From IMG/VR virus record IMGVR_UViG_3300006224_000017, positions 1 through 43,088 of that record: a stretch of 43,088 nt of DNA; one strand, given 5' to 3'. Positions within the stretch are counted from its first letter, which is position 1, and each line of letters begins with the position of its first letter. The translations under genes and the position numbers were made by a program. The notes under the pieces are model-generated. The model searched no databases. It was given only the letters and a program-made list of their open reading frames with translations, and had not been told where the DNA came from. Below are positions 2,968 to 11,036 of this stretch, piece after piece. The stretch is from a virus.

Positions 2968-4701
2968 ATGTACTTCGATACAAAAGAAGAAGCCCAAGCT
3001 GCTGGAATTACACGCTTCAGACACTACCCAACAGGGGAAGAAGTTATAGTTGGAGACCGAGTTGCCTTTATTGGCAGCGGTTATGAGTCCTATGGCTTAG
3101 CCAATGGAGACGTTGGGCTTGTCATAGGCTACTCTGACCAGTACCCAATGATAGATTGGCAGAAGCCTTTGGTTGGTGCCAATGGCAGCTACATGGGAAC
3201 TAACTATGAGCATCGTCTCAATGATAGGTCTGGTTATACATTTGACCTAAACCATCTAAAGTTTCTGGAACGTGGCAAAATTCCAACAGAGGAAGAAAAA
3301 TTAGACCTGTTTGTGGAGACAGTAGACAAAGCTCCACGAACCTTAATCGTTGATGGCAAAGTTTACAAACTTGAACTAGCCGCCAATGCACCAGCTATGG
3401 AAGTCAAGCGTCAATTACTTGACTCTATGGCTACTCGTATTCGGACAATTCGTAGTCAAGCCAATGCCGAAATTGACAAGATGAGAACCAAACTTGATAA
3501 GCAACAACTCATGCCCGCAATAACAGTCAATGATGCGGCAACCTTTGACATCCACTTAAACGTAACCAATGGCTACGTAGCCTATCTTATGCCCTTTCAT
3601 TATACCCCAAAGTACATTGTTACAAGGGACTCGGAAGGTCGGATACCAGATAGGGAAATCAAAGCTGAAACGCAGAAAGCACTTAAACGTGATGTTTTTG
3701 TAAATCTCTTAACTAAGGCTGGCAAAGTTGTTGAAGCTGGCTTGTATGAACGTCTGCCCAACGGCAGCATCACAGGTTTCTACCACTATCATGGCGGCGG
3801 ACACGATTGCTTAGGAAGCATGGGTGCTTTCCGTACAATGAAAGCGGAGACACTAGCCGATGTAATAAGTTTTAGAGCAGAGATGGAGAAAATGATGGAG
3901 ATTGTCAATTACAAATCGCTTCTCCATAGAAATCCGGGCGGTGATTTTCCAGATTCAGAACAACTATTGCGTGACTCGAAGCCTCTAAAGCAGGAAGTCG
4001 CATGGTCTGCAAGCCCAAAAGAGCTAAAAGTGGGAGACTTAGTTGAAATCATAGAACCCATAGATAGTTTCCCACCCCATATGGTAGGAACTATCGGTAG
4101 AGTCGTTAATAGCACTAGGGGGGGTGAGTACAATTATGGTATTGAGTTCGCCGTCAATTTTGGTGGACACGATTGCGATGGCAAGTGTCGTCATGGTTAC
4201 GGATACAACTTCCCTGACAGATGTCTGTTGCTAGCCAGAGAAGGTGCGGTCAATCCTTTCACTAACCCAACTCCAGCTGACACAGGAGAGCCTAGAATGG
4301 TTCCGCCAGCCACTACTGACCGACCAGCTGCACCCTTTGGTAGCGGCGGTATTCGTTTATCTGGGGCAGCTAGTGTGCTGGAAACTATAGCAGCTCAACA
4401 GCAGAGAACACCTGAAAACTGCCCAGCTAATGAAAGAGGAGAGAAGTTCCCTGCTTATGGCTACGAACTACTCCAATGCACTCGATGTGGTAGAAATTGG
4501 GGAGACCATCACGATTGGCTCTGTGAAGACCAATACCAAGCATGGATGCAGGAAGGGCGTGTGATACAAAATACAGACACTTCTCCTACAGCTTCTGGCA
4601 TCTTTACTTTCAGCCCATCTCCAATCCAACCTCAATCCGCTGGAATAGACGGTTGGACAACAACCTTTACAACTTCAACAGGGGGTGGAACAATTGTTTA
4701 G
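2968..4701 (+). CDS. E2-like (UBC-fold) protein with SH3-like and zinc-finger domains
   Basis: This 577-residue protein starts at 2968 after AAAGGAGAGA. Residues 22-102 and 348-425 look like two copies of an SH3/KOW-like barrel (VGDRV..., VGDLV..., each with a GxVG turn and a closing GYxF...LxxL). Between them, about residues 185-320, lies an E2-like segment whose HYHGGGHDCLG (273-283) resembles the HPN...G-x-CL active site of ubiquitin-conjugating enzymes, with Cys281 as the candidate catalytic residue. A Pro-rich linker (425-480) leads to a zinc finger, CTRCG and HHDWLC (504-519). The C-terminus ends in TGGGTIV. It overlaps the E1-like gene by 17 bases and is followed by a JAB peptidase, the usual partners of prokaryotic E2 proteins. 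The E2 call is by motif and context, not by alignment. Confidence 0.6.
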   Translation: MYFDTKEEAQAAGITRFRHYPTGEEVIVGDRVAFIGSGYESYGLANGDVGLVIGYSDQYPMIDWQKPLVGANGSYMGTNYEHRLNDRSGYTFDLNHLKFLERGKIPTEEEKLDLFVETVDKAPRTLIVDGKVYKLELAANAPAMEVKRQLLDSMATRIRTIRSQANAEIDKMRTKLDKQQLMPAITVNDAATFDIHLNVTNGYVAYLMPFHYTPKYIVTRDSEGRIPDREIKAETQKALKRDVFVNLLTKAGKVVEAGLYERLPNGSITGFYHYHGGGHDCLGSMGAFRTMKAETLADVISFRAEMEKMMEIVNYKSLLHRNPGGDFPDSEQLLRDSKPLKQEVAWSASPKELKVGDLVEIIEPIDSFPPHMVGTIGRVVNSTRGGEYNYGIEFAVNFGGHDCDGKCRHGYGYNFPDRCLLLAREGAVNPFTNPTPADTGEPRMVPPATTDRPAAPFGSGGIRLSGAASVLETIAAQQQRTPENCPANERGEKFPAYGYELLQCTRCGRNWGDHHDWLCEDQYQAWMQEGRVIQNTDTSPTASGIFTFSPSPIQPQSAGIDGWTTTFTTSTGGGTIV

Positions 4702-5506
4702 ACTATTGAACAATCAAACAACGGAAGAACGGTTACGCCTTTACACTAGACAGCAACCAATAGGGTTGCTATTCCCATCAGGGGCAATCGTTGTAGGCTG
4801 CGGCGGAACAGGAATGTGGACAGCATTTCTTTTAGCCATGTCGGGCGTTGAAAGTTTAATGTTAATGGATGGCGACCATCTTGAGGAAAGCAATCGAAAC
4901 AGGCTGCCCTACAAACCAGAGGATGTAGGTCTGCCCAAAACAGTAGCCCTTAGACAGATTATCCAATCAATTAGACCTGAATGTTCCATTGACACCGATG
5001 GAATAGCCGATACCTTTACTTTAGCTTTGATAGACACTAGAAAGTTCTGTGTCTTGTTTGACTGTACTGACAACATTAGAACTCAACGCTTCCTCAATCA
5101 ATGGTGTAAGGACAATGATGTTGAGTACATTCGGGCAGGATACAACGGACTTCACATGACAGTCGGTATTCCACCACCTGCTTGGACAACTGACGATGCA
5201 GAACATACAGGTTATGACATTATACCAAGCTGGGTGATTCCAGCAATTATACCAGCGGCTTTAGCAGTAGCTAAGGCTTGCTTGTATCCTGACTTGACTT
5301 TCTCTGGAGAGTTAGGTACAATCACATCAGGTACCCAAAGATTAATGACACATGAAGAAAAAATAGAGGAGAAAGAAAATGTGGAAAGACAACGAGAACG
5401 AGACGAGTGGGAAGAAGAAAGAGAAGATTGCTCAGAGTCAGCTACACATGAAGATTGCAACAGCTGTGAGCATTCCAACGACTGCCCATTCAGACACGAA
5501 GAATGA
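4685..5506 (+). CDS. ThiF/E1-like adenylating enzyme
   Basis: Proteins of this family adenylate the C-terminus of a ubiquitin-like partner using ATP. Seen here: the Rossmann loop VVGCGGTG (36-43), the acidic end of strand 2 (LMDGD, 60-64), SNRNRL (69-74, the Arg-containing ATP contact), GLPK (82-85) and FDCTDN (125-130). The segment IIPSWVIPAIIPAALAVAKA follows as in ThiF/MoeB proteins. No Cys is present in the crossover region (about 150-185), so the usual thioester Cys seems absent. A Glu/Arg-rich tail ends in a four-Cys cluster (C249, C258, C261, C267). GTG at 4685 is used; TTG at 4694 is also possible. The gene overlaps the E2-like gene by 17 bases and the JAB gene by 128. Confidence 0.85.
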   Translation: MEQLFRLLNNQTTEERLRLYTRQQPIGLLFPSGAIVVGCGGTGMWTAFLLAMSGVESLMLMDGDHLEESNRNRLPYKPEDVGLPKTVALRQIIQSIRPECSIDTDGIADTFTLALIDTRKFCVLFDCTDNIRTQRFLNQWCKDNDVEYIRAGYNGLHMTVGIPPPAWTTDDAEHTGYDIIPSWVIPAIIPAALAVAKACLYPDLTFSGELGTITSGTQRLMTHEEKIEEKENVERQRERDEWEEEREDCSESATHEDCNSCEHSNDCPFRHEE

Positions 5507-6338
5507 AAACAAAGAGGACACACCCAAAGAGGTGGACACACAAGAACCAAACTTAGCAGAGACGTCAGAGCCAAAGGTTAAGAAGATTGAAATCAAACCA
5601 GACGAGCTAAAGCAACCATCTACTTGCTGGACTACCAGACTTAAAGTAATAGACAAGTGTGAAATTGGCAAGGATGAGGATGTCTACATTGGGATGAACA
5701 GCGATGTCCATTCCAAGATTGATGCCCTAACCCTTGAGATGGAAGGTTGCGAGTGGCTTGGTTATCTAGTTGGCTTTGAGGCAGATGGAAACTACGTCAT
5801 TGAGGACATCATTATTCCAGAACAAACAGTCGCCTCAGCCAGCGTCAATGTAGACAATCCACACATCGTGGATGATAACATCATTGGCACAGTCCATAGC
5901 CATCATAGAATGGGTTCGTTCCATAGTGGAACGGATAACGAATACTTAGTCGGCAACTATCCAGTTTGCCTTGTCTACTCAAACACAGGCAAGTATGCTT
6001 GCAAAGTTCGTAGACAACTTCCTTGTGGACATTACTTTGTCAAAGAGTGTGAAGTTACAATCGAGTACCCTGAAGCAGAGGATGTTGTTGCTTTTGTTAA
6101 GGAAGCCAAGACTAAATTCACTCAACGAACTTATGGTAACAGAGATTACAGTCGTAACGTCTATCAAAGGGATGTCTACCAACAATCCAATCGCTTCTGT
6201 ACAAAATGTCGGAAGTGGGTTGTCTATGGAGAAGGCTGTTACGATGACCAAAAGCAGCTGTTTCATGATGAGTGTCTCGATACCTTGCATACTGCAATGT
6301 GGGAAGTCCCAGATGCATACAATTACGGTTGCTGTTAG
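5379..6338 (+). CDS. JAB/JAMM metallopeptidase with C-terminal zinc ribbon
   Basis: The protein has a complete JAMM motif: Glu125 in CEWLGYL, then HSH (173-175), Ser183 and Asp186, exactly the HxHx7Sx2D spacing that binds catalytic zinc in isopeptidases of the Rpn11/JAB family. Such enzymes mature ubiquitin-like precursors or cleave conjugates. The first 80 residues are charged and low in complexity; the C-terminus has a separate zinc site, CTKC (274-277) and HDEC (296-299). The start at 5379 is supported by GAGGAGAAAG just upstream, though it lies inside the E1 gene, and ATG 5448 is a later alternative. It closes the E2/E1/JAB cassette and stops at the edge of a large hairpin. Confidence 0.88.
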   Translation: MWKDNENETSGKKKEKIAQSQLHMKIATAVSIPTTAHSDTKNENKEDTPKEVDTQEPNLAETSEPKVKKIEIKPDELKQPSTCWTTRLKVIDKCEIGKDEDVYIGMNSDVHSKIDALTLEMEGCEWLGYLVGFEADGNYVIEDIIIPEQTVASASVNVDNPHIVDDNIIGTVHSHHRMGSFHSGTDNEYLVGNYPVCLVYSNTGKYACKVRRQLPCGHYFVKECEVTIEYPEAEDVVAFVKEAKTKFTQRTYGNRDYSRNVYQRDVYQQSNRFCTKCRKWVVYGEGCYDDQKQLFHDECLDTLHTAMWEVPDAYNYGCC

Positions 6339-6403
6339 AGAGTAGTTATTCTACACTATATACTCTACTACGTAGAGTATATAGTGTAGGGACAACTGCT
6401 CTC
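6338..6403. other. 66-nt extended hairpin with a perfect 18-bp stem
   Basis: CTACACTATATACTCTAC (6351-6368) and its exact complement (6372-6389) enclose a TAC loop. Outside this, GAGAGTAGTT (6338-6347) pairs with AACTGCTCTC (6394-6403) with one G-T wobble, across a small internal loop. No T-run follows. It begins at the last base of the JAB stop codon. It could be a processing site for a double-strand-specific ribonuclease, a cruciform, or a strong mRNA end. Confidence 0.85.
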
Positions 6404-6420
6404 GTCACTTAAACTTTGCG

Positions 6421-6524
6421 TCGCCCTTAGCTAAGGCGATGTAACCTCCAACATGGGGCGGCGAGTTTTCCTTTGTTGTGCCTCCAGCAAAGGTTTGTAG
6501 TCGCCCCGAATTATCTTGAAAGGA
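6421..6524 (+). ncRNA. structured leader of the RNase H gene
   Basis: Several nested helices can form. TCGCC with GGCGA around CTTAGCTAAG (6421-6439); GGGGCG (6455-6460) with CGCCCC (6502-6507); inside the latter, CCTTTG (6470-6475) with CAAAGG (6488-6493). Alternatives exist: TCGCC (6421-6425) can also pair with GGCGA at 6460-6464, and TCCTTT (6469-6474) can pair with the ribosome binding site AAAGGA (6519-6524). Mutually exclusive pairings that involve the ribosome binding site suggest a switch or attenuator. A 15-codon frame from 6453 lacks a ribosome binding site. No known riboswitch class is recognised. Confidence 0.45.
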
Positions 6525-6531
6525 CTAGACT

Positions 6532-6903
6532 ATGAAAGTATATGTAGACAGCAGTACCAAAGAAAGCTGTTTCGTATTGCTCAATGGACACTCCCAACAA
6601 GTATTCATTGAGGAGTACGAAACCAAAGAGACAAACAATTCTGGTGAGTACAAAGCGGTTATCCGTGCCCTGACGTATTTGAAGGAGAACGGAATGACCG
6701 ACTTTATCATTTTTACGGACTCCAAACTTGTAGTCCAACAAACCAAAGGCTTCAATAAATGTTACAGTCCAACCCTAGCACCTTTACGTGATGAGACACG
6801 CCGTTTATTAGGGGCAGACCATATCATGTTCAAGAACCTGCGTATTGAATGGGTTCCAAGAGAACAAAACCTAGCTGGAATAATTTTAGAGCATAGGAGT
6901 TAA
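6532..6903 (+). CDS. ribonuclease HI family protein
   Basis: RNase HI cuts the RNA strand of RNA-DNA hybrids, for example replication primers. The 123-residue protein has the expected metal ligands: Asp6 in VYVDSS, Glu39 in NSGEYKAV and Asp63 in FTDSKLVV. The last conserved region reads WVPREQNLAG (107-116), with Gly where E. coli RNase HI has the fourth acidic residue; from general knowledge this NxAG variant occurs in short RNase H proteins. The ribosome binding site GAAAGGA precedes the ATG and may be masked by the structured leader. It opens the replication module, three genes before the first recombination or repair genes. Confidence 0.85.
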   Translation: MKVYVDSSTKESCFVLLNGHSQQVFIEEYETKETNNSGEYKAVIRALTYLKENGMTDFIIFTDSKLVVQQTKGFNKCYSPTLAPLRDETRRLLGADHIMFKNLRIEWVPREQNLAGIILEHRS

Positions 6904-6905
6904 GT

Positions 6906-7106
6906 ATGCACTACACACTACATAACATACCCGAAATATTAGAAATACATAAAGACCATGACCACACTTACATGGACTCAACAGGGGCAACCAATTATGA
7001 ATGTACAGTCTATGAGCTAGTGAAGTCAGGAAGTACTAATCAACAAATATTAGTCGCTCTCAATGAGGACAGGGGGTTTATGACAAGAAGGAGAACCCAA
7101 CAGTGA
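6906..7106 (+). CDS. 66-residue hypothetical protein
   Basis: The ATG at 6906 lies two bases after the RNase H stop, with GGAGT upstream. The gene ends in a GTGA overlap with the helicase gene, so all three genes are coupled. The protein has several His residues near its start (HKDHDHTY) and a helical middle with a possible helix-turn-helix character (ELVKSGSTNQQILVALNED). No family is recognised. Its place directly before the helicase suggests a replication accessory or DNA-binding role, by inference only. Confidence 0.55.
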   Translation: MHYTLHNIPEILEIHKDHDHTYMDSTGATNYECTVYELVKSGSTNQQILVALNEDRGFMTRRRTQQ

Positions 7107-8113
7107 AAGATGGATTATGGGTTACAATAGATGGGCAAGATACCTTTGTCCATTACTCTGACCTTGAAGAAGAACTCATGCCCCAAGTACTACGCCCAAT
7201 CGGGGGCTTTGTTTACCAAGCTGATGCCTTTCGGCACATGAACCTGCCCAGAGTCCCATTCTACATTGAGGATTGGCTGCCCAAACAAGGCAAGATGTTG
7301 CTTTATGGTGAAGCCAAATCTGGCAAAAGCTATCTGTCAATGCAAATTGCTCGGTGTTTGGGGCAGGGTGAACCGTTCATGGGACTGATAACCCAACCTT
7401 GCCGCTCGCTCTATACCCAATTTGAACTCGGTGAAGCTGTCCTCATGGACAGGATAAACCAAACCAACAAGGACTACGAGAACGTCTACGTTGGAACTCG
7501 GCTGGGCATGAAGCTCGATACCCAATCAGGGCAGTCCGATCTACGCCGTGCTATTGAAGCAGTAGAACCCAATGTCCTCATTCTTGACCCACTTTACAAA
7601 GCTATCAGGGGAGATGAAAATGAGGCGTCCGATGTCATGGCTGTCCTAGATTTCTTGGATCAAATGATTGAGGGCTACGAGTGTTCAATAATTCTTGTCC
7701 ACCATGCTGGCAAAGACCTGACCAAAAGAGGTCGTGGCTCCTCAGTCCTTGAAGATTGGGTGGACAGCTATGTCCAAATTAGAAAGATTAAATCCCAATC
7801 TCACGAGTTGATCATTAAGATTGAGCCCCAATTCATGCGTCATGCAAGTCTGCCCGATGAACCCATCACAGCACGCCTTGTCAACTACGAATTTGTACCA
7901 GAGGGAGTCCAATCAGTGACTTCAAAAGTTCTTGACTACTTCAAGAGCAACGCTGACAAGGAGATCGAGCCACATGAATTGCTCGATGCCAAATTAGGGT
8001 CTAACACAGCCGTTTATAAGTCCCTACGTGAGCTTCAACAGGCAGAGCTAATTGAACGCTTGGATTGGGGCAAATATAAATTAAAGGGGGGTGAGGACTT
8101 GACAAAACCATAA
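7103..8113 (+). CDS. RepA-like AAA/RecA-fold replicative helicase
   Basis: This 336-residue ATPase resembles the RepA/AAA_25 hexameric helicases used by plasmids and phages. The Walker A loop is GEAKSGKS (69-76), the Walker B strand is PNVLILDPLY with Asp162, and the sensor strand ends in ILVHHAGKD (197-205), a hallmark of this group. The last 80 residues look like a winged-helix domain (VTSKVLDYF...SLRELQQAELIERL). GTG at 7103 is chosen because GAAGGAGAACC lies upstream and the codon overlaps the previous stop as GTGA. It probably unwinds DNA at the fork with the polymerase encoded downstream. Its last codons overlap a consensus promoter. Confidence 0.85.
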   Translation: MKDGLWVTIDGQDTFVHYSDLEEELMPQVLRPIGGFVYQADAFRHMNLPRVPFYIEDWLPKQGKMLLYGEAKSGKSYLSMQIARCLGQGEPFMGLITQPCRSLYTQFELGEAVLMDRINQTNKDYENVYVGTRLGMKLDTQSGQSDLRRAIEAVEPNVLILDPLYKAIRGDENEASDVMAVLDFLDQMIEGYECSIILVHHAGKDLTKRGRGSSVLEDWVDSYVQIRKIKSQSHELIIKIEPQFMRHASLPDEPITARLVNYEFVPEGVQSVTSKVLDYFKSNADKEIEPHELLDAKLGSNTAVYKSLRELQQAELIERLDWGKYKLKGGEDLTKP

Positions 8114-8158: not shown

Positions 8159-8806
8159 ATGGCATTTGTAACTTCATCTAAGGAAGCCTCTCGCGGTGGG
8201 TTTTCCAACATCAAGACAATCAAGGGAACCGTAGTAAAGATTGACGAGGTTGCCGCTCCCCCAACATGGCAGACAACCAAGTCCCAAATCAAGATTTGGC
8301 TAGAGAATGCCCAAATCATTGATAAGTTTGACCCCGACGATGAGTTCGAACTGAAAGAGGGTAAGTTTGAATTCCAGTATCCCTATGCAGAACCGGGAAA
8401 GAAACCCTCGGCAATCGGTCCGTACATGAGATGTCTTATCATGCCCCTAGAGAAAGCCGGCAAGAAACTTGAGGACTTGCTTCATCAGGAAGTGACGTTC
8501 ACCAAGAAAGAAATGGAAGCTGGCTTCGATCAGAAAGACAAAGATACCGGTGCCAAAACCAAAGTAACCTATACCCAATACTTCGTTCCTGTAGAAGATG
8601 AGGGCGTTGCTAACGTCAATACTCTAGCCTACATCAAAGCCGGCGTCAAAGACAAGAATGTCAAGCAAGCACTCCGCTGGTTGATTACAGACACCAGAGC
8701 CCATTCAATGCCTGAGTTTAAGGATGCCCTGAACGCTGGCACATTGGCTGGTATGCTCGGTCTAACCTTAGTGAACGATGTATTTGTGGAGCAGCCTAGT
8801 GCTTAG
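8159..8806 (+). CDS. phage protein of unknown function, possible ssDNA-binding role
   Basis: The 215-residue protein has a strand-rich N-terminal two-thirds (TIKGTVVKIDEV, SQIKIWLENAQII, EFELKEGKFEFQY, EVTFTKKEM) compatible with an OB-like barrel, then a helical C-terminal part (KDKNVKQALRWLITDT). No catalytic motif is seen. It is the first gene after the strongest promoter in the window and lies beside nuclease, ATPase and helicase genes, where phages often keep a single-strand DNA-binding or annealing protein. The ribosome binding site AAAAGGAG supports the start. The binding role is inference from position and secondary-structure impression. Confidence 0.75.
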   Translation: MAFVTSSKEASRGGFSNIKTIKGTVVKIDEVAAPPTWQTTKSQIKIWLENAQIIDKFDPDDEFELKEGKFEFQYPYAEPGKKPSAIGPYMRCLIMPLEKAGKKLEDLLHQEVTFTKKEMEAGFDQKDKDTGAKTKVTYTQYFVPVEDEGVANVNTLAYIKAGVKDKNVKQALRWLITDTRAHSMPEFKDALNAGTLAGMLGLTLVNDVFVEQPSA

Positions 8807-9071
8807 GTTGGTTTTAGTTCGTTTCAAAGATACCACTACCCATGACCACTGGACAGCCGTGGACATAGTAAAGAGCTCGATGGAGTGCATTGACTGTAAA
8901 GCTGTAGGCTGGATTATGGAAGAGACTGTAGATACAATCAAGCTAGCCAGCTTAATGGACTCCCAAGAAAATGTTTCAGGCACAACTATTCTAGTGCCTA
9001 AAGGTGGGTGCATAATTGAAGATATCTCCATCCCCGGAGTTCAAAACAACAATTCTCCAAAGAATCCATGA
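8799..9071 (+). CDS. 90-residue conserved phage small protein
   Basis: GTG at 8799 overlaps the end of the preceding gene; TGGAGCAG lies seven bases upstream. An ATG at 8778 and a TTG at 8808 are alternatives. The protein shows an early WTAVD, then CIDCKAVGWIMEE, TIKLASL and finally VPKGGCIIEDISIP. From memory this order (Asp/Trp region, GW with small strand, then a Pro-Lys-x-Cys-Ile closing strand) matches a widespread small phage family of unknown function. Its last 56 bases overlap the nuclease gene. Confidence 0.6.
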   Translation: MLRLVLVRFKDTTTHDHWTAVDIVKSSMECIDCKAVGWIMEETVDTIKLASLMDSQENVSGTTILVPKGGCIIEDISIPGVQNNNSPKNP

Positions 9072-9696
9072 CCGAGAGTTTAAAGAAAGGACTGGTGTCC
9101 ACTGTTCAGACCTACTCTATTGTCTGAATAAACAAGCTCTTCGGAGACTCAATCCCCAACCTGCCCTAGAGCATGAGACCTTGACCTATAGTATCGGCTG
9201 GTCTACCCAACGATGGCTAACAGGACAAGATCGAGATGCAGAAGAAAAGGAAGTCGATGGGATTATCGTAACCTGTGACGAGCTTATCCAAGGGGAGCCT
9301 TGGGAACTAAAAGCCACGTTCACATCTAAGGACAAACCCATTGACGAGAACGACTCATGGCTTCGGCAGATCATGGCTCAATGCTACGTGCAGGGCACGA
9401 CCAAAGCATACCTAACTCGCCTTGAATTGATGGGCAACTGGAAGTCTGTGTTCGGCAAGAAAGAAGAGAAAGACCTGCCTGAAAACAGAAAGCCTACTCT
9501 ATCAGCTTGGCGTCTGGAGTTTACCGATGAAGAACTCAGGGACAATTGGCTCTGGCTAAAACGCCGAGCAAGTTTGTTCCGAGAGCTTCTCCAACGGCAG
9601 AACTTATTATCTCCCAATGCGGCTTTGCCACCTAATCACGAGTGGGAATGCAAGGGATGCCCCCCAGCTTTCAGAAAGGTGTGCAAAAATGAGTGA
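9016..9696 (+). CDS. Cas4/RecB-like PD-(D/E)XK nuclease
   Basis: The protein has the PD-(D/E)XK core: Asp81 in EVDGIIV, then ELK (Glu97, Lys99) in PWELKATF, and a following helix with WLRQIMAQCYVQ, typical of RecB/Cas4 nucleases. Cys30 near the start with Cys212, Cys215 and Cys223 at the end (CKGCPPAFRKVC) reproduce the iron-sulfur cluster arrangement of Cas4 and AddB. It is likely to resect DNA ends for recombination together with the Sak4-like ATPase two genes on. The start codon is TTG (9016) with AAGGTGGG upstream, which keeps the Cys30 region intact. Confidence 0.82.
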   Translation: MKISPSPEFKTTILQRIHDREFKERTGVHCSDLLYCLNKQALRRLNPQPALEHETLTYSIGWSTQRWLTGQDRDAEEKEVDGIIVTCDELIQGEPWELKATFTSKDKPIDENDSWLRQIMAQCYVQGTTKAYLTRLELMGNWKSVFGKKEEKDLPENRKPTLSAWRLEFTDEELRDNWLWLKRRASLFRELLQRQNLLSPNAALPPNHEWECKGCPPAFRKVCKNE

Positions 9697-10450: not shown

Positions 10451-10597
10451 ATGACCAGCGACCAGACCAAACTGCCAATCGAAATGCAAATGCTGAAAAT
10501 TCTACTAGAGATGTCAGAGAACTTGGAGCGTATCGCCGATGCTCTGGACAAACTAGAGTACGACGTGGCCCATGGAGATGTGCATTTCAATGAATGA
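10451..10597 (+). CDS. 48-residue helical small protein
   Basis: The ATG at 10451 follows the ATPase stop by one base, with AGGAGT at 10440-10445 as ribosome binding site. The product is almost entirely predicted helix with heptad-like Leu/Ile spacing (MLKILLEMSENLERIADALDKLEY), suggesting a short coiled coil. It overlaps the start of the UDG gene by eight bases (or 26 with the earlier UDG start). It may be an accessory subunit of a neighbour, but no family is recognised. Confidence 0.5.
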   Translation: MTSDQTKLPIEMQMLKILLEMSENLERIADALDKLEYDVAHGDVHFNE

Positions 10598-11036
10598 AGA
10601 ACTGGATCGCATTGCCCAAGAGATTAGGGCGTGCCAGCGGTGTCCATTGCGTGCAGGGGCTACCCAACCAGTGCCCGGATTTGGGCCAGATCAGGTTAGA
10701 TACGTGCTAATTGGTGAAGCTCCCGGCAAACAAGAGGACGAAGCTGGCATCCCATTCGTTGGGGCAGCTGGACGAAGATTAGATAAGCTCATGGACTTAG
10801 CCCAAATGGATATGAACACAGTTTACCTGACCAATGTCTGCCGTTGCAGACCACCCGACAATAGAGTACCGAAGAAGAAAGAGATCAACGCATGCAAACC
10901 CTTTTTGTTCCGCGAGTTGCGGATACTTAAACCAGAATACATAATCACGCTAGGTCGAACGCCACTAGGATTGTTTTCAACCAGTGGTGTAAACCAAATG
11001 CATGGGACAATGATCGATGTGGAGATACCAGAATGA
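10590..11036 (+). CDS. family 4 uracil-DNA glycosylase, N-terminal part (interrupted)
   Basis: Family 4 UDGs remove uracil from DNA and carry a 4Fe-4S cluster. Seen here: CQRCPL (15-20), the active-site region GEAPGKQEDEAGIPFVG (42-58), and the later cluster Cys residues around TNVCRCRPPDN (84/86) and Cys102. The protein stops at 148 residues, before the essential HPxxxL motif near the C-terminus of normal enzymes of about 200 residues. That motif (YHPAAAL) is found in the same frame at 11235-11261, inside the 5' part of the polymerase gene, after a stretch with several stops. ATG 10590 is chosen; ATG 10572 is in frame. Alone, this product is probably not active. Confidence 0.8.
   Translation: MNEELDRIAQEIRACQRCPLRAGATQPVPGFGPDQVRYVLIGEAPGKQEDEAGIPFVGAAGRRLDKLMDLAQMDMNTVYLTNVCRCRPPDNRVPKKKEINACKPFLFRELRILKPEYIITLGRTPLGLFSTSGVNQMHGTMIDVEIPE

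Follow-up and report, generated by a model that had tools for sequence, protein, structure and literature searches.

Why would a virus of bacteria encode the enzymes of a ubiquitin-like conjugation pathway, when such conjugation is known from bacteria chiefly as an anti-phage defence? The question is raised by a stretch of 43,088 nt (IMG/VR virus record IMGVR_UViG_3300006224_000017, positions 1 to 43,088; hereafter the window), which comes from a virus of bacteria. A previous reading, made from the sequence alone, had recognised in it three overlapping genes for an E2-like protein, a ThiF/E1-like adenylating enzyme and a JAMM (JAB) peptidase, and had proposed that they counter defence or run a sulfur-transfer reaction. 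The three open reading frames (ORFs) are present on the + strand as claimed, and a fourth gene that had been overlooked, encoding a ubiquitin-like protein, lies just upstream. Together with 35 related phage contigs, this gene strengthens the identification of the cassette; as to purpose, the gene context points to replication and recombination rather than to the roles proposed. We regard it as very probable that the window carries a cassette of ubiquitin-like protein (Ubl), E2, E1 and JAB, and as fairly likely that this cassette is a self-contained phage system of ubiquitin-like conjugation and deconjugation acting around replication. The genes and the predicted active site are listed below with the supporting evidence, which includes hidden Markov models (HMMs).

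2597-2863, + strand: ubiquitin-like protein, 88 aa (phmmer, relatives-only HMM, AlphaFold/Foldseek, profile against PDB)
2968-4701, + strand: E2-like protein (ORF1), 577 aa (relatives-only HMM; hhalign of the HYH clade to the HPN clade)
3784-3816, + strand: predicted E2 active-site motif HYHGGGHDCLG (H273, C281, G283); none of these three residues varies among 22 family members
4685-5506, + strand: ThiF/MoeB-type E1 adenylating enzyme, 273 aa (Pfam ThiF, E 4.9e-25)
5379-6338, + strand: JAMM/JAB metalloprotease, 319 aa (Prok-JAB, JAMM residues, AMSH profile match)

The E1 and JAB proteins and their phage relatives

The identities of the E1 and JAB proteins are secure, and both stand as they had been read from their motifs. 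Beyond the Pfam match, 95-100% of 38 E1 sequences retain the ATP-site residues (GxGGxG, D62, D64, N70, R73, K85 and D129). The JAB protein matches Prok-JAB at E 2.8e-5, slightly below the Pfam cut-off; its residues E125, H173, H175, S183 and D186 are invariant among the 9 JABs of the family, and AMSH deubiquitinases are the best PDB matches of its profile (E 3.5e-6). In contig L088, a metallo-beta-lactamase-like protein (8316-9194, by eye) is encoded directly after the JAB gene, an arrangement reminiscent of the type 6a operon in Iyer et al. 2006.

Direct searches of IMG/VR with the single sequences of the three window proteins returned no relatives; these emerged only from alignment-based (profile) scans. 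The resulting family E1 set comprises 36 rows, one from the window and 35 from other contigs of IMG/VR, after removal of identical E1 sequences and of the more distant L191. An IQ-TREE phylogeny of the E1 sequences places these rows and phage contig L098 in one clade (support 95/89), with L155 and L151 closest to the window and with the E1s of crAss-like phages and of bacterial genome-scan loci outside it. In L098 (5446-6807), which sits on a long branch, a ubiquitin-like domain (NEAG followed by VEYL) appears, by eye, to form an N-terminal fusion with the E1.

A tblastn search with ORF1 against 50,697 GenBank phages gave no match, nor did a search of GenBank phages with the E2 of contig L190. 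The E1 of L190 had a sole match there, a ThiF protein in a Salmonella record, and the window JAB matched crAss-like phages, Dulem virus 41, Vibrio phages and Salmonella phage Arash at 28-46% identity. A profile search of bacterial genome contigs found ThiF loci, many of them adjoined by a JAB gene, and none with the ubiquitin-like or E2 gene of this cassette by its profiles. A Prok-E2_B search of seven genomes produced no match, and its control likewise produced none. A literature search that covered subscription journals thinly and did not cover bioRxiv yielded no report of a Ubl-E2-E1-JAB cassette encoded by a phage.

The E1 and JAB genes are neighbours in 35/35 relative contigs (with three short ORFs between them in L154), and in 33/35 E1 has an E2-like gene upstream of it. 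One of the two exceptions, L163, is a locus that starts 257 bases before E1. The other, L161, has other genes upstream, including an HNH-type gene (by eye), and because its flanks are complete it truly lacks a recognisable E2 there; its family E1-JAB pair (5541-7636) also has no recognisable ubiquitin-like gene upstream. A ubiquitin-like gene ending in glycine is linked to the cassette in most relatives, not always directly upstream: in L151, ubiquitin-like genes flank the cassette on both sides (1547-2050 and 10503-11024). By eye, each of these L151 genes holds two tandem ubiquitin-like repeats, each with a KAG end, an arrangement resembling a polyubiquitin gene. L155 is syntenic with the window for all four proteins (E 1e-13 to 1e-49).

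The E2-like and ubiquitin-like proteins

Pfam, PHROGs and NCBIfam offer no genuine family for ORF1. An HMM built without the window matches its residues 153-344 at E 6.3e-27 in a search of all window ORFs, the next best scoring 0.1. A linked clade carries the motif HPNV..G.VCLG, as in eukaryotic E2s, and hhalign of the HYH clade (minus the window) to this HPN clade, with no member shared, gave a probability of 89% (p 2.5e-6). The best 60 PDB matches of the HPN-clade profile (alignment A7) are all ubiquitin- or SUMO-conjugating enzymes (best E 5.6e-4), and two members of that clade match Pfam UQ_con (E 2.9e-4 and 0.0038). A comparison of alignments A6 and A7 (E 2.6e-19) was set aside as evidence because L175, L176 and L178 occur in both. 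The sequence-only reading had suggested looking for a ubiquitin-conjugating (UBC) core in a predicted structure of residues 185-320. The outcome was divided: Foldseek found no UBC match for an AlphaFold model of the E2 region (predicted local distance difference test, pLDDT, 82; predicted template-modelling score, pTM, 0.66), and the profile comparisons lead to UBC enzymes. Sequence supports the E2 assignment well, but fold comparison did not confirm it.

Further modules of the enzymes, and the two hairpins next to their genes, are as follows.

~3025-3255, + strand: N-terminal SH3/KOW-like module of the E2-like protein (by eye)
~3520-3972, + strand: E2-like core
~4030-4227, + strand: second SH3/KOW-like module of the E2-like protein (by eye)
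5430-5506, + strand: C-terminal Cys cluster of the E1
6195-6338, + strand: C-terminal CxxC..HxxC segment of the JAB protein, putatively zinc-binding
2864-2967, + strand: strong intergenic hairpin between the ubiquitin-like gene and the enzymes (RNA fold -41.1 kcal/mol, z -4.5, 0/200 shuffles)
6339-6410, + strand: long AT-rich hairpin directly 3' of the cassette (RNA fold -38.2 kcal/mol, z -8.5)

In the E2-like protein, a coiled coil lies between the N-terminal SH3/KOW-like module and the core, and the C-terminus bears a Cys/His cluster; the L155 protein shares the SH3/KOW-like segments before and after the core (by eye). Among the last 15 E2 residues, 21/21 relatives have a tryptophan (DVW.S, alignment A6), compared with 24% of neighbouring ORFs; among the first 25 residues of the ubiquitin-like protein, 18/27 have one (W[DS], alignment A5), compared with 29%. 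These two motifs may serve in docking. Both hairpins between which the enzyme genes had been placed do exist, but the first sits inside the cassette, between the ubiquitin-like gene and E2, and we would guess that by dividing the two it could permit excess production of the tag.

The ubiquitin-like gene is preceded by AAAGGAG, and its product ends in SPFDTAG followed by KHPAFHN, the last conserved glycine being residue 81 (2837-2839). A phmmer search of all L155 ORFs with the window protein, by which the L155 counterpart was found, returned the gene at the same position (4986-5261) at E 1.1e-13, the next at 0.71. The relatives-only HMM ranks the window protein first among window ORFs at E 0.0011, which by itself would be weak, ahead of a next match at E 0.022. 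Nearly all of the best 50 PDB matches of its AlphaFold model are ubiquitin, SUMO, UBX or similar folds (best E 0.056), and SUMO is the best PDB match of the family profile (E 0.0064). The tail consensus is RP[FY]DxAG, and Gly81 is invariant across 27 ubiquitin-like sequences. Beyond the last glycine, 26 relatives (alignment A5) have 0 to 2 residues, against 7 in the window, so that trimming would be needed here, with the JAB protein as the obvious candidate. The L155 protein ends in DKAA rather than glycine, and some other distant members likewise lack a glycine end. A 79-aa ORF at 2303-2542, first considered as the ubiquitin-like gene, had no supporting match.

These features bear on sulfur transfer. 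In that reading the ubiquitin-like protein would carry sulfur destined for a cofactor, for cysteine or for nucleic-acid thiolation, with the ThiF/MoeB-type E1 activating it and JAB releasing it. A ThiF/MoeB-like E1 without a conserved catalytic cysteine would suit such a role, but the linked E2-like protein with its invariant cysteine weighs against it, the JAB profile is nearest to deubiquitinases and the ubiquitin-like profile to SUMO, and the cassette neighbours include no rhodanese or sulfurtransferase that was noticed. We consider sulfur transfer rather improbable.

Replication genes and known systems

Fifteen relatives encode, in that order, the clamp-loader large subunit, its small subunit, the sliding clamp, the ubiquitin-like protein, E2, E1 and JAB, the clamp and clamp-loader identities being based on Pfam Phage_clamp_A and Gp44_lid and on PHROG processivity-factor and clamp-loader matches. 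At the locus of four other relatives there are genes for a calcineurin-like metallophosphoesterase and an SMC-like ATPase (SbcD/SbcC-like). The window, L152, L153 and L155 encode an AAA_25 ATPase downstream of JAB, at a distance of 0.07 to 3.3 kb. The window also encodes RNase H, uracil-DNA glycosylase (UDG) and a family-A polymerase (PolA) downstream, which supports placing the cassette in a phage early region, and some cassettes outside the clamp-linked group adjoin SbcC/D-like or helicase-like/UDG/PolA genes. A parallel crAss-like block, described below, is situated beside primase and UDG. Since related contigs share ancestry, we count about four independent settings, all of them in DNA metabolism. 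This context points to replication or recombination rather than to the counter-defence or sulfur transfer proposed previously.

The same context bears on a role in virion assembly, in which the ubiquitin-like/JAB pair would process structural proteins, as proposed for the lambdoid tail proteins TAPI/TAPK. Tail ubiquitin-like and JAB proteins are known from phages (Iyer et al. 2006, PMC1779556), and some Vibrio and Salmonella phages have relatives of the JAB, among them Salmonella phage Arash, where several neighbours are annotated as structural. However, the window cassette lies upstream of replication genes and on the opposite strand from the structural-looking block at 16-43 kb, and in most relatives with recognised neighbours it adjoins replication genes. 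The lambdoid pair resembles the cassette in combining a phage ubiquitin-like protein with a C-terminal glycine and a JAB, and differs in its tail-assembly context, in the fusion of its JAB to NlpC/P60 and in having neither E1 nor E2. We consider a role in virion assembly very unlikely.

In addition to these tail pairs, Iyer et al. 2006 described bacterial operons of this type, among which operon type 6d comprises a ubiquitin-like protein, JAB, E1, E2 and an alpha-helical protein. The window shares with it the same four activities in separate genes and a ubiquitin-like protein with a C-terminal glycine. The E2s differ, the window family having HYH/HPN..C(W/L)G and the 6d E2s no upstream histidine. 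The PRTRC system, which we take to be operon type 6d, is matched weakly by the JAB protein (PRTRC_A, E 0.0057) and by the E1 (PRTRC_ThiF, E 0.023), at 16.2 bits against a curated cut-off of 101.8 and at 14 against 144.75, respectively; no PRTRC partners were seen, and the window cassette has a phage replication context. In Vibrio phage D69 (L005), a protein with three repeats and a GTKG end (1139-1930) is encoded close to both a JAB and a Prok-E2_D-like protein (E 0.00044); by eye, these are possible PRTRC_C-like ubiquitin repeats.

The activities of E1, E2 and JAB are also those of the bacterial cyclic oligonucleotide-based anti-phage signalling system (CBASS; Cap2/Cap3) and of Bil/Bub, and the E1 profile matches Cap2 and BubCD structures. 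A catalytic cysteine is a feature of the E1s of CBASS type II and Bil/Bub (Cap2-type E1s), and the window E1 family, unlike these, does not conserve one. The window cassette differs further in being phage-encoded, in having E1 and E2 as separate proteins and in possessing a dedicated ubiquitin-like protein with a different tail. These comparisons bear on counter-defence or inter-phage defence, in which the cassette would modify, or its JAB strip, host antiviral components (CBASS, Bil/Bub), or would block competing phages. Bacterial relatives of such cassettes work in anti-phage defence, as Jenson et al. 2023 (PMC10097602) describe, and the E1 matches PADLOC E1-E2 models (best E 3.6e-12). However, these are the only PADLOC models that any cassette protein matches, the ubiquitin-like, E2 and JAB proteins of the window having none at E<=1; no CD-NTase or effector was recognised near the cassette, and replication-gene neighbourhoods recur across several phage groups. 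Counter-defence or inter-phage defence is unlikely in our estimation, though less so than the other alternatives. Given the lack of a conserved E1 cysteine, the PADLOC results and the PRTRC scores, we file the cassette under neither CBASS/Bil/Bub nor PRTRC; it probably works like those systems.

A parallel arrangement is found in crAss-like phages (e.g. crAss001), where the gp79-gp78-gp77-gp76 block, beside primase and UDG, combines a ubiquitin-like protein with a conserved SG, an HxH..CxG protein, JAB and ThiF. Its E1s form a separate clade and its order is E2-like-JAB-E1; there is no significant profile link for the ubiquitin-like protein, and for the E2 only one at p 0.0016. In crAss001 (L004, 2959-8181) and crAss-like contigs, the ubiquitin-like part is an N-terminal domain with the conserved SG in 27 loci, and in L003 it is a separate 92-aa gene with the end KIKSGKF.

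A proposed role in phage replication

Starting from the gene set, its linkage, the catalytic residues, the terminal glycine and the placement beside replication genes that several phage groups show, all as they appear in sequence, we propose the following pathway. JAB would trim the 7-residue tail after Gly81, and the ThiF-type E1 would adenylate the exposed C-terminus. As no catalytic cysteine is conserved in the E1 family, the Ubl would then move straight from the adenylate to Cys281 of the E2-like protein, or else via a transient E1 thioester. Using its SH3/KOW-like and zinc-like modules for docking, the E2 protein would attach the Ubl through an isopeptide bond to a protein of the replication or recombination machinery, from which JAB could detach it again. 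That conjugation serves replication or recombination is, in our estimation, somewhat more likely than not.

Several points weigh against this proposal. No Cys column after D129 of the E1 exceeds 21% of the 38 sequences, leaving no conserved catalytic cysteine; Foldseek with the E2-region model found no significant match in PDB or among BFVD viral structures, UBC included; and the window ubiquitin-like protein matches the general profile weakly (E 0.0011) and has a low-confidence model (pLDDT 58). The 15 clamp-linked contigs share ancestry and represent few independent events, no sliding clamp was recognised in the window, and it is common for early genes of phages to lie together without being functionally related. 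Moreover, a conjugate, a thioester or a substrate is not something that sequence alone can show.

These data suggest that protein tagging accompanies genome replication in some phages. More tentatively, several unrelated phage groups might carry a ubiquitin system of their own that modifies the phage replisome, in one group by acting on the sliding clamp encoded just upstream, as a prokaryotic parallel to the ubiquitin and SUMO modification of PCNA. The parallel crAss001 cassette could bring the question within reach of culture, since a strain of Bacteroides intestinalis is given as host in its GenBank record, and the small stand-alone E1, E2, JAB and Ubl proteins offer material for studying the origin of the ubiquitin pathway. 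A complete phage system located with replication genes would mean that bacterial viruses, too, employ protein tagging, probably in the service of their own DNA metabolism.

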